Origin: Burkholderiaceae bacterium
Lineage (GTDB): Bacteria; Pseudomonadota; Gammaproteobacteria; Burkholderiales; Burkholderiaceae_C
Reading direction: 5' to 3'
Assembly (NCBI GenBank): GCA_026125795.1
Contig: JAHCKM010000001.1
Span: 1,488,001 to 1,552,000 of the forward strand
DNA: 64,000 nucleotides
Positions 21,512 through 37,203 of this stretch are shown one piece after another (positions within the stretch are counted from its first letter, which is position 1; the number at the start of each line of letters is the position of its first letter). The notes under the pieces are model-generated. The model saw nothing but the letters and a program-made list of their open reading frames with translations. It searched no databases and was not told the DNA's origin. The position numbers and the translations under genes are program-made.

Positions 21512-21763
21512 ATGGACACAACGCTTCAACGCCCCGTTCAAGTCTCGCGCCCGCTGTGGCTGCGCTTGTCCGGCCTCCTTGTCGAGGGCTGGAGACGCTG
21601 GCAGGCGGCGCGCCAGCGCGCCGGGGAGTTCGAGGCGCTGCGCCGCCTCAGCCCTGGCGTGCTGCATGACATCGGTGCGCTGCCCGAGTGGCAGGCCGCC
21701 GCCCAGCACTGGCGCGAGCAGCGCGCGGCCGAGCGCGACGCGCTGTTGCACCGCCTCGATTGA
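21512..21763 (+). CDS. Small DUF1127-like protein
   Basis: An 83-residue protein preceded by a strong ribosome site (AGGAG at about 21500). A central segment, FEALRRLSPGVLHDIGALPEW, resembles the DUF1127/YjiS core, where an Arg-rich helix is followed by LxDIGL. Some DUF1127 proteins bind small RNAs or act in phosphate and metabolic control, but no function is proven for this subgroup. It is divergent from a LysR gene and may be its target. The hairpin repeat block at 21764 begins directly after its TGA stop. Confidence 0.65.
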   Translation: MDTTLQRPVQVSRPLWLRLSGLLVEGWRRWQAARQRAGEFEALRRLSPGVLHDIGALPEWQAAAQHWREQRAAERDALLHRLD

Positions 21764-21916
21764 AAGCGACCGCCAGGTCGCTTCGGCGCAGGCTCAGGTC
21801 GCGCCGCGACCTGACAACCGAAGGTTGCGGCGTTGGCTCACATCGCGTAGCGATGTGAAGGCGCGCAGCGCCGGCCGAAGCCAAGGCGCGCCAGCGCCGG
21901 CCGCAGCCAAGCGCGC
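21764..21916. repeat. Compound hairpin repeat block, copy 1
   Basis: This fills the whole gap between the small gene and the convergent cheB stop. Four stems occur in series: AAGCGACC/GGTCGCTT (21764-21783); a 10-bp stem TCAGGTCGCG/CGCGACCTGA (21794-21814); CAACC/GGTTG (21815-21827); and a 9-bp stem TCACATCGC/GCGATGTGA (21838-21858). The linkers CGGCGCAGGC and AGGCGCGCAGCG and the closing GAAGCCAA recur, nearly unchanged, at 37027-37203, where the stems carry different paired bases. It could be a bidirectional transcription end or a mobile REP-like element. Confidence 0.75.
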
Positions 21917-31044: not shown

Positions 31045-31136
31045 GGAGAGATGGCAGAGTGGTCGAATGCGCCGGACTCGAAATCCGGTTCACGGGTTCT
31101 CCCGTGACGTGGGTTCGAATCCCACTCTCTCCGCCA
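31045..31136 (+). tRNA. tRNA-Ser (anticodon CGA)
   Basis: A complete 92-base tRNA with encoded CCA at 31134-31136. The acceptor stem pairs GGAGAGA (31045-31051) with TCTCTCC (31126-31132). The anticodon stem CCGGA/TCCGG closes the loop CTCGAAA, giving anticodon CGA, which reads UCG. The long variable arm (CACGGG/CCCGTG) is the class II feature of serine tRNAs, and the T loop is GGTTCGAATCC. It lies directly behind serS, so enzyme and substrate genes are side by side. Confidence 0.97.
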
Positions 31137-36090: not shown

Positions 36091-37026
36091 GTGAATCCCT
36101 CATTGCGTCGTCATGCCGTGCAAGCCGTCGTGCTGCTGTGCGCGGTCAGCGGCTGCGCCACGCGTTCGAGCGACGTGCCGCCGCACAAGACAAGCCCGGC
36201 CGCGTTCGCCGCCTGGAGCTGCGAGCGCATCGACGAGGAGTCCGACCGTGTGCAGCTGCGCGCCGCCGACGTGGCCTACGCCGTCGATGCGCGTGTCGGC
36301 AACAACATGATTGCGCTCGGCCTGGGCGTCATGGTGTTCTGGCCGGCGCTGCTGGCGATGCGCCCCGACGGCATGGAGGCGCAGGAGCTGGCCGCATTGA
36401 AAGGCCGCTACGAGGCGTTGCGCAGCGCCGCGCAGCAGCGCGGCTGCCCGCCGCCACCCGAGACGATGACGGCGCAGCGCGCGGCCAAGCTGCCGCTGGC
36501 GGCCGGCGAGCGCTTCGTCTACGAAGAGCGCGCCAGCAAACGCGCGGCGCCGCGCGAGCTCGGCCTGCGCGTGCTGGCGCTCAAGCGCGACCGCATCGAG
36601 TTTGCGGCCGACGTGGGCGGCCAGGTGGTCACCGATGCCTGGGCGCAGGACCTGGCCGGCAACACGCAGGTCGACCACCGCGTGCCGCTGGTCAAGTGGC
36701 GCCGGCTGTTGCAGCCCGATCTGCAACTCGGACAGGTGCTGGCCGGTGACCTGTACTCGGCCGATCCCTCGGCGCTGGGCCATGCGCGGCTGCGTGGTCA
36801 GGTGGTGGCGCAGGGCGTGCAGACAATCGCGGGCCGCTCGTTCGACGTGGCGGTCATCGAGTTGTTCGGCGATGCCCCGATGGGCGACAACGACAGCACG
36901 CGCGTCAGCGGCGTGATGGCGGTCGATCGCTCGAGCGGACTGCTGCTGAGGCTGGAGCTGTCGTCGTCGAACCCGGCGTATTCGATGCGCCGGCGCCTGG
37001 TGCGCGTGGAGCCGCCCGCCAGCTGA
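36091..37026 (+). CDS. Putative lipoprotein
   Basis: A 311-residue protein with a GTG start and a lipoprotein-like signal (RRHAVQAVVLLCAVSGC, lipobox VSGC). A second hydrophobic stretch at about residues 70-90 (MIALGLGVMVFWPALLAM) resembles the membrane or glycine-zipper segment found in several small outer-membrane lipoproteins. The C-terminal 200 residues form a soluble domain of unknown type. It ends at the hairpin repeat array, whose first stem begins right after the TGA. Confidence 0.6.
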   Translation: MNPSLRRHAVQAVVLLCAVSGCATRSSDVPPHKTSPAAFAAWSCERIDEESDRVQLRAADVAYAVDARVGNNMIALGLGVMVFWPALLAMRPDGMEAQELAALKGRYEALRSAAQQRGCPPPPETMTAQRAAKLPLAAGERFVYEERASKRAAPRELGLRVLALKRDRIEFAADVGGQVVTDAWAQDLAGNTQVDHRVPLVKWRRLLQPDLQLGQVLAGDLYSADPSALGHARLRGQVVAQGVQTIAGRSFDVAVIELFGDAPMGDNDSTRVSGVMAVDRSSGLLLRLELSSSNPAYSMRRRLVRVEPPAS

Positions 37027-37203
37027 AAGCGCAGGCGCAAAGCGCCTGTGCTTCGGCGCAGGCTCACATGGCGCAGCCATGTGAAGGCGCGCAGCGACGG
37101 CCGCAGCCAAAGCGCCACAGGCGCAAAGCGCCTGTGCTTCGGCGCAGGCTCACATGGCGCAGCCATGTGAAGGCGCGCAGCGACGGCCGCAGCCAAAGCG
37201 CAA
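37027..37203. repeat. Compound hairpin repeat, two tandem 86-bp copies
   Basis: Copies run 37032-37117 and 37118-37203 and are identical over about 84 bases. Each has a long stem around CAGGCGC AAA GCGCCTG, then the linker CGGCGCAGGC. A 9-bp stem, TCACATGGC/GCCATGTGA (37064-37084 and 37150-37170), follows, and then AGGCGCGCAGCG and GCAGCCAA. The first stem (AAGCGCAGGCGC) starts directly at the TGA of the upstream gene, as at 21764. Compared with that copy, the middle stem has exchanged a paired C and G, keeping the pairing. The block lies between two genes of the same direction. Confidence 0.85.

Follow-up and report, generated by a model that had tools for sequence, protein, structure and literature searches.

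The stretch analysed here, a window of 64,000 nucleotides from the genome of a Burkholderiaceae bacterium (assembly GCA_026125795.1, contig JAHCKM010000001.1, positions 1,488,001 to 1,552,000), contains blocks of stems joined by conserved linkers, which belong to an element family that we name E. Throughout, G numbers denote genomes (that of the window is G000) and L numbers denote loci. The first block (21764-21909) consists of two modules in tandem, follows a TGA stop ending at 21763, and lies before a convergent CheB-type gene (PF01339, PF00072). At the second site the TGA ends at 37026 and is followed by tandem blocks at 37027-37109 and 37110-37195, each a complete unit, upstream of an open reading frame with Metal_resist/LTXXQ matches. 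The open frames that end at the two TGA stops gave no Pfam matches. A preliminary description, made from the sequence alone, had placed hairpin blocks directly after TGA at 21764 and 37027, in agreement with the sequence; the end of the first block, given there as 21916, is corrected to 21909. It had also pointed to stems that differ between the sites and stay paired. This is borne out by the H2 stem, TCACATCGC-GTA-GCGATGTGA (21838-21858), for which the counterpart is TCACATGGC-GCA-GCCATGTGA (37064-37084 and 37150-37170), with both sides changed, and by the first stem, which is AAGCGACC/GGTCGCTT at one block and AAGCGCAGGCGC/GCGCCTGTGCTT, with one G-T pair, at the other.

Copies of E are numerous in the same genome. 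A genome-wide search with the linker TTCGGCGCAGGCTCA, allowing at most two mismatches, returned 93 matches, against 57 when the linker was reversed as a control. With a covariance model trained on 15 copies from this genome, 95 places were located at an E-value of at most 1 and 82 below 0.01, the weakest of which may be chance. The three main copies in the window score 5.1e-20, 5.1e-20, and 5.6e-20, values that are not independent, since the model was trained on one of these copies and a second has the same sequence. Other genera and families also yield copies under this model, with E-values of 1e-10 to 1e-18, and the hairpins are thus more than a chance pattern. The copies in the window are not the only ones, and the stems of further copies covary, contrary to the outcomes that the preliminary description named as refuting it.

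Alignments of E give the anatomy 5'-(A/C)AA stem a - loop - stem a' TT(T/G) - CGGC - GNA - GGC - H2 - optional H3 - GCC - GNA - GCC - A-3', with a core consensus that begins TNCGGCGNAGGC and ends GNAGCCA. Overall, E measures about 60-160 nt. In short units, of about 75 nt, the loop of the first hairpin (H1) has a few bases, while in long units, of about 130-160 nt, it contains a host gene end with its stop or start codon. From a first alignment, and without any supplied structure, RNAalifold predicted H2 and the closing stems; H3 was added afterwards. Covariation was assessed in a model-free MAFFT alignment of 73 of 109 candidate cores from many genomes, near-duplicates of own-genome copies and odd-looking cores having been omitted by eye. 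In this alignment 92.5% of cells pair. Two-sided changes number 137, compared with 36.5 in shuffles (standard deviation 4.5), and are seen in 14 of the 20 pairs, with every helix covarying; shifting the pairing partners by sliding abolishes most of the signal.

Under selection as RNA, the stems should show a stronger preference for G-U pairs. No clear RNA-type wobble bias is present in the stem mismatches of the 73 copies, in which the non-standard cells include 33 G-T and 25 A-C without the inner H2 pairs (omitted because they are misaligned in long stems) and 35 and 29 with them. The internal loop between the closing stems is GNA in 60 of 73 rows on the 5' side and 68 of 73 on the 3' side, and the loop is GNA or GNNA in 50 rows for H2 and in 53 for H3; GNA loops are known as very stable mini-hairpin loops in DNA. 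Three stretches folded on each strand proved more stable than their shuffles, with z between -3.5 and -5.7 for DNA and between -2.5 and -5.2 for RNA. The mismatch pattern, the GNA loops, and the folding favour a DNA hairpin over an RNA hairpin, short of proof. A search of the window against Rfam at the gathering threshold returned only a tRNA at 31045, and no Rfam match was obtained at eight E loci at an E-value of at most 1. The preliminary description took covariation as evidence for a selected hairpin. The covariation is present, and the inference from it is too strong, since template switching in replication can alone create and maintain compensated hairpins, as described in PMC8794818. 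E offers a natural test of whether compensated hairpins come from selection or from template switching.

The usual site of E is [GC]A|(A/C)AA. Sequence past the last A of the core is A-rich, with A in 86, 100, and 86 of 137 copies at the first three positions (the copies considered being those ending in CCA, CTA, or ACA). Of 115 sites tested in the genus g1, 52 are preceded in the same sense by an open-frame stop no more than 70 nt from the core (17-20 nt away in 18 cases), and TGA accounts for 42 of these 52 stops. We take the position of the blocks straight after TGA to reflect a target of GA|, which TGA supplies. Copies occur in both orientations relative to genes. The ends of E, CAAC/AAAC and GCCA, are not terminal inverted repeats, and flanking repeats, where present, are of 18-94 nt and variable rather than short and fixed; in both respects E differs from a miniature inverted-repeat transposable element (MITE) moved by a DDE transposase.

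The distribution of E is patchy. Counting its own genome, E is present in 24 of 60 relatives (covariance model, E-value at most 0.01), in 53 of the 250 genomes sampled from the order (at most 1e-6), and in 7 of 299 genomes sampled across the phylum, six of these lying within the order. The sole match outside the order in the phylum sample belongs to another order of the class (G479, C13:21052-21111). An exact-pattern scan of named genomes found 33 stretches, including ones in Ideonella, Rubrivivax, Piscinibacter, Aquabacterium, Curvibacter, Gallionellaceae, and 'Candidatus Nitricoxidireducens', and one 91-base copy had no match in plasmid and phage collections. The OTC gene, found in 39 of 40 family genomes, was fetched at 30 loci, of which 27 were readable at the gene end. 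Its stop is followed by E in G000, G035, and G009 and by a degenerate E in G063 and G064; by eye, E was not seen within 170 bases of the OTC end in the other 22 readable loci. Within the genus, where only five genomes gave an OTC match (G001 gave none), E is present in G000 and G005 and lacking in G002, G003, and G004. Upstream of RuvC, E was found in 3 of 30 loci read (G018, G035, G022) and also in G001. Relatives without E have a single gene end, and at RuvC, in three relatives lacking E that were examined by eye, the upstream stop overlaps the RuvC start (ATGA in G012; TGATG in G063 and G065). In G022, E and its repeat part the two genes, both ends of which are whole.

Filled and empty sites are also found within other repeats. 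A MITE in G055 has three copies of 206 bp (L091, L092, L094) and at least six of 272 bp (L089, L090, L093, L332, L335, L336); the extra 66 nt are exactly one E at one base in four of these and a slightly changed E in two, and each of the two forms contains a further E. The ends of this MITE are GGAAACGCTGAA/TTCAGCGTTTCC, and L333 and L338-L340 show a related carrier whose ends are different. In the genome of the window, another repeat, GGGGGCAGCGA...GAGCGTGGGGG, has a nested E in L009, L012, L023, L025, L029, L051, and L053 and lacks it in L005 at 2515 (2515-2545) and L059 at 376 (375-410), where varying spacers leave the exact junction unfixed. In all of the filled loci except L053, this repeat with its nested E was noted near 1478-1575, read on the strand of E. 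Tandem arrays of E units occur. Counts on the two replication strands of G000 (40 and 27, p 0.14, with weak GC skew) gave no clear bias, and copies there do not cluster by orientation (p 0.38); a count in G055 of 18 lagging and 7 leading, made by hand with arrays taken once and many copies MITE-borne, is not used as evidence. Overall, E is probably a family of mobile hairpins. To that extent the suggestion of a mobile REP-like element in the preliminary description is upheld by the dispersed copies and the filled and empty sites.

Some copies lie inside genes. E is in frame and free of stops in five gene types, in the same frame each time: hutH (G000, G022), an ACR_tran/RND gene (G005 and also G004, the latter judged from its identical sequence), a CusA/CzcA-like RND gene with three tandem units (G127, partial frame), and an mpl-like ligase and a PhoR-like kinase, both in G087 (partial frames). 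The encoded peptide is ..SAQA....VK..SAGRSQ-like, its first part differing in hutH and its last in the ACR_tran/RND gene. At four loci E interrupts a truncated tRNA within its anticodon loop, before AA(A), with an intact tRNA alongside (tRNA-Ser(tga), tRNA-Leu(caa), and, in two genomes, tRNA-Ser(gga)). Other positions recur between genomes. In eight of them (L064, L072, L073, L082, L118, L137, L155, L161) E lies at one position, beside an A/T-run, upstream of a gene starting M(D/N)HIRNFSI, which we take to be LepA-like. In five (L065, L087, L143, L157, L348) it follows a GroES-looking gene end upstream of a ATGGCAGCAAAA-type start, presumably a groES-groEL pair.

At a subset of sites, including OTC and RuvC, sequence comparison indicates that the host gene takes its end from the inserted unit, with the native end displaced. 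Host sequence is directly repeated to the left and right of E (X-E-X), at or above 99.5% of a null of 1208 mismatched pairs, in 33 of 151 distinct sites (130 with usable flanks). In a stricter test with 19 later sites added, host sequence was repeated on both sides at 37 of 170 sites, some of which are successive units of one array. The right copy begins at the first base past the core in 20 of the 33 sites, and, by eye, GA or CA closes the eight-base stretch that precedes the left copy at 32 of the 37, some of the CA being the end of a preceding unit. The arm left of the core complements the start of the left, gene-joined copy (X_left) in 20 of the 37, at a score of 8 or more (99% of the null, 7.8), and matches the right, displaced copy (X_right) in four, in three of which both copies are alike there. 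For example, the arm CACGTGCATCCTGTTT at the OTC gene of G000 is the reverse complement of the gene-joined end AAACAGGATGCACGTG and not of the displaced AAATCGAATGCACGTG. Since the arm pairs with the gene-joined copy, the gene end at these sites lies within the loop of the first hairpin of E. The copies are spaced 136-163 nt apart in most gene-end units and 82-130 nt in some; at RuvC the spacing is 139-144 nt in four genomes.

Differences between the two copies were counted by codon in 29 adjacent pairs from 24 loci, picked as DNA repeats and then by a protein motif with few mismatches; 104 are synonymous and 3 nonsynonymous. A displaced, useless gene end should accumulate nonsynonymous changes. 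Their scarcity therefore suggests either that the ends had diverged while functional, before they were brought together, or that the displaced copy is renewed by gene conversion. At the OTC gene of G005, compared with G004, which lacks E there, the displaced end differs at 2 of 48 positions and the joined end at 5 of 48. The pattern of a host gene end repeated around E recurs at several sites in 20 later regions, drawn from six other families and one member of the family of the window. The first reading of X-E-X, a plain long target-site duplication, was rejected because the arm fits the gene-joined copy at 20 of 37 sites and the differences are synonymous; intralocus gene conversion is a possible alternative. 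A candidate at L016 was dismissed as a chance match. Arrays of E with a repeated gene start are present at L330 (G005:C12) and L342 (G004:C1), the former having five units of about 140 nt that are MFEKVLIANRG- or MFEKALIANRG-like.

Along with the structure, target preference, unit boundaries, and filled and empty sites read from the sequences, these findings point towards E being a non-coding mobile hairpin in Burkholderiales-type bacteria which in some cases carries a rescue gene end, a reading to which we give a probability of roughly 60%. E would land at short A-runs and, in some cases, bring a replacement end so that the gene that is hit survives; the gene would read into the copy of its end in E, and the native end would come to lie beyond E. 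The element may move together with its rescue end, arriving from diverged orthologues, and could enter new cells by homologous recombination or in single-stranded DNA form, as an intermediate with GNA-looped hairpins that host or trans-acting machinery cuts and joins. Complementarity of the arm could be kept by selection, by template switching, or by both. More tentatively, and with somewhat less than an even chance, E may be a protein-free bacterial homing element: a GNA-looped hairpin of single-stranded DNA at GA|AAAC-type sites, with a diverged gene end in the loop of its first hairpin that would let it tolerate essential genes, spread by a trans-acting or host activity. If E does supply gene ends in bacteria, it rewrites the ends of core genes (OTC, RuvC, and others), adds in-frame peptides inside proteins, and points to a mobilising activity not yet known.

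Several observations weigh against a mobile element with a rescue end. Positions shared by several genera may mean vertical descent and not mobility. The flanking repeat is shown by a minority of copies only, a few of the 33 significant sites are tandem H1 repeats, 17 of the 37 arms fail the cut for complementarity, and the copies in the window carry no gene end. The way in which pairs were selected for the codon count favours low nonsynonymous numbers, and L354, which lies outside the count, has several amino acid changes, with 25 of 60 bases differing in an ungapped comparison. The displaced OTC end is nearer to G004 only in G005; G000 gives a tie, 5 and 5 of 48. No mobilising protein was identified, and the Y1_Tnp and RVT_1 profiles were not found in the genome of the window.

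This last result would be expected if no dedicated mover existed, homologous recombination spreading E between orthologous sites and template switching making its arms, compensated changes, and flanking repeats. At 20 of 37 sites the arm repeats nearby host sequence in inverted orientation, units form tandem arrays, and compensated hairpins can arise by template switching in the account given by PMC8794818, all of which suit such a passive origin. It does not readily explain why a conserved core and a 3' end of GCCA followed by A-rich sequence recur at genes, tRNAs, and repeats that are unrelated to each other and come from many families; their reproduction needs a source copy, and we regard a passive origin as rather unlikely. 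A vertically inherited functional RNA or terminator at gene ends, with its hairpins under selection, is in turn consistent with the strong folding, with the same-sense stops that precede 52 of 115 sites in g1 (18 at 17-20 nt), and with positions that recur in many genomes, such as that upstream of the M(D/N)HIRNFSI gene in eight. The copies in the window have no T-run, presence among relatives is patchy, G-U is in no clear excess over A-C (33 and 25), and E lies in both orientations to genes, in frame within them, and in anticodon loops, so that we judge an RNA or terminator to be distinctly unlikely. The mismatches, the two orientations, and the in-frame copies also speak against the RNA 3' end considered in the preliminary description.

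Two kinds of dedicated machinery were considered. Retroposition resembling that of short interspersed elements (SINEs), by target-primed reverse transcription, would give a precise 3' end before an A-run, a variable 5' part, and long flanking repeats; the right junction of E does precede A-rich sequence, the flanking repeat at L045 matches at 45 of 45 positions, and the reverse transcriptase profile RVT_1 (PF00078), present in 5 of 14 genomes searched, was found in G005, which is rich in E, and in G001, G009, G018, and G035. It was not found in G000, G055, G059, G022, G019, G010, or G002-G004, 20 of 37 sites have a folded arm that belongs to the left copy, and the mismatches have no clear RNA-type bias. 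Reverse transcription was rejected because RVT_1 is missing from the results for G000 and G055, despite its presence in G005, and the retroposition model is very unlikely. Movement of a REP/BIME-type element by RAYT, a Y1 HUH transposase, is less probable still. E is palindromic, often intergenic, and dispersed, and Y1_Tnp (PF01797), present in 16 of 26 genomes searched, occurs in some genomes that bear E (G009, G010, G018, G019, G035, and weakly G059). The RAYT-type transposase that the preliminary description proposed to look for gave no PF01797 match in G000, in the five further genus members G001-G005, in G022, or in G055, which is rich in E, and for these genomes the REP/RAYT model was rejected. 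The absence of a GTAG/GTGG foot also separates E from REPs with RAYT, as do its multi-helix core and the intragenic copies with gene ends.

The likeness of E to known systems is partial. Rickettsia palindromic elements can, like E, sit in frame inside protein genes, in other bacteria; we know of no case in which they carry a gene end. Integron attC sites and integrase sites in tRNA or gene ends involve folded single-stranded DNA hairpins, and anticodon loops and gene ends are targeted with the gene restored. In contrast with integron cassettes, E units have no room for a recombinase gene or a cassette open reading frame, and no attC boxes were recognised in E by eye, although no integrase search was made. 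REPs and BIMEs with RAYT are, like E, short dispersed bacterial palindromes and have been proposed to be non-autonomous transposable elements (PMC2817692). Those tabled in that paper mostly start with GTAG/GTGG-type sequence, form short hairpins, and accompany a RAYT gene. A word search of the REP survey PMC3733652 found no mention of Leptothrix, Rubrivivax, Methylibium, or betaproteobacteria.

In layout, the nearest analogues of E are the WHO elements of yeast and the mobile open reading frames (mORFs) of fungal mitochondrial DNA, and it is a member of neither group. The WHO elements (FBA1-homing relatives of HO) leave displaced gene ends downstream and accumulate in tandem clusters, as E does, and some are described as relocating elsewhere in the genome, on two occasions together with a duplicate of the host 3' end (PMC7282813). 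They encode an endonuclease and are found in yeast (PMC7282813), whereas E is bacterial, of about 60-160 nt, and present at many host genes and tRNAs. The mORFs, like E, have an inserted gene end in phase, a displaced native end, and much divergence in DNA that leaves the protein almost or entirely unchanged; they encode LAGLIDADG or GIY-YIG endonucleases (PMC3630166), and E has no such gene. Units of about 75-160 nt leave no room for a homing endonuclease. Rescue by a supplied gene end, which in the compared cases involves endonuclease-coding fungal elements, thus seems here to be achieved by about 75-160 nt of non-coding bacterial DNA. No published description of E was found in the literature searched.

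Table 1. Parts of the E copies at the two sites in the window.
Position	Strand	Feature
21761..21763	+	TGA stop of upstream open frame; GA fits target motif [GC]A|(A/C)AA
21764..21783	+	H1, AAGCGACC-GCCA-GGTCGCTT
21784..21793	+	Linker CGGCGCAGGC, 5' strand of closing stems with GNA internal loop
21794..21814	+	H2 of first module, TCAGGTCGC-GCC-GCGACCTGA
21815..21827	+	H1 of second tandem module, CAACC-GAA-GGTTG
21828..21837	+	Linker CGGCGTTGGC
21838..21858	+	H2, TCACATCGC-GTA-GCGATGTGA
21860..21872	+	H3, GGCGC-GCA-GCGCC
21874..21883	+	Closing 3' strand GCCGAAGCCA, core 3' end
21885..21909	+	Extra tandem H3 and tail, GGCGC-GCCA-GCGCC-GGCCGCAGCCA; element end
37027..37053	+	H1, AAGCGCAGGCGC-AAA-GCGCCTGTGCTT, immediately 3' of TGA
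37054..37063	+	Linker CGGCGCAGGC
37064..37084	+	H2, TCACATGGC-GCA-GCCATGTGA, compensated change
37086..37098	+	H3, imperfect, GGCGC-GCA-GCGAC
37099..37109	+	Closing 3' strand GGCCGCAGCCA; first unit ends
37110..37195	+	Second tandem unit, AAGCGCCACAGG... through GCAGCCA

The extra H3 and tail at the end of the first block (Table 1) have further counterparts in L105, which suggests that modules of E can multiply separately.
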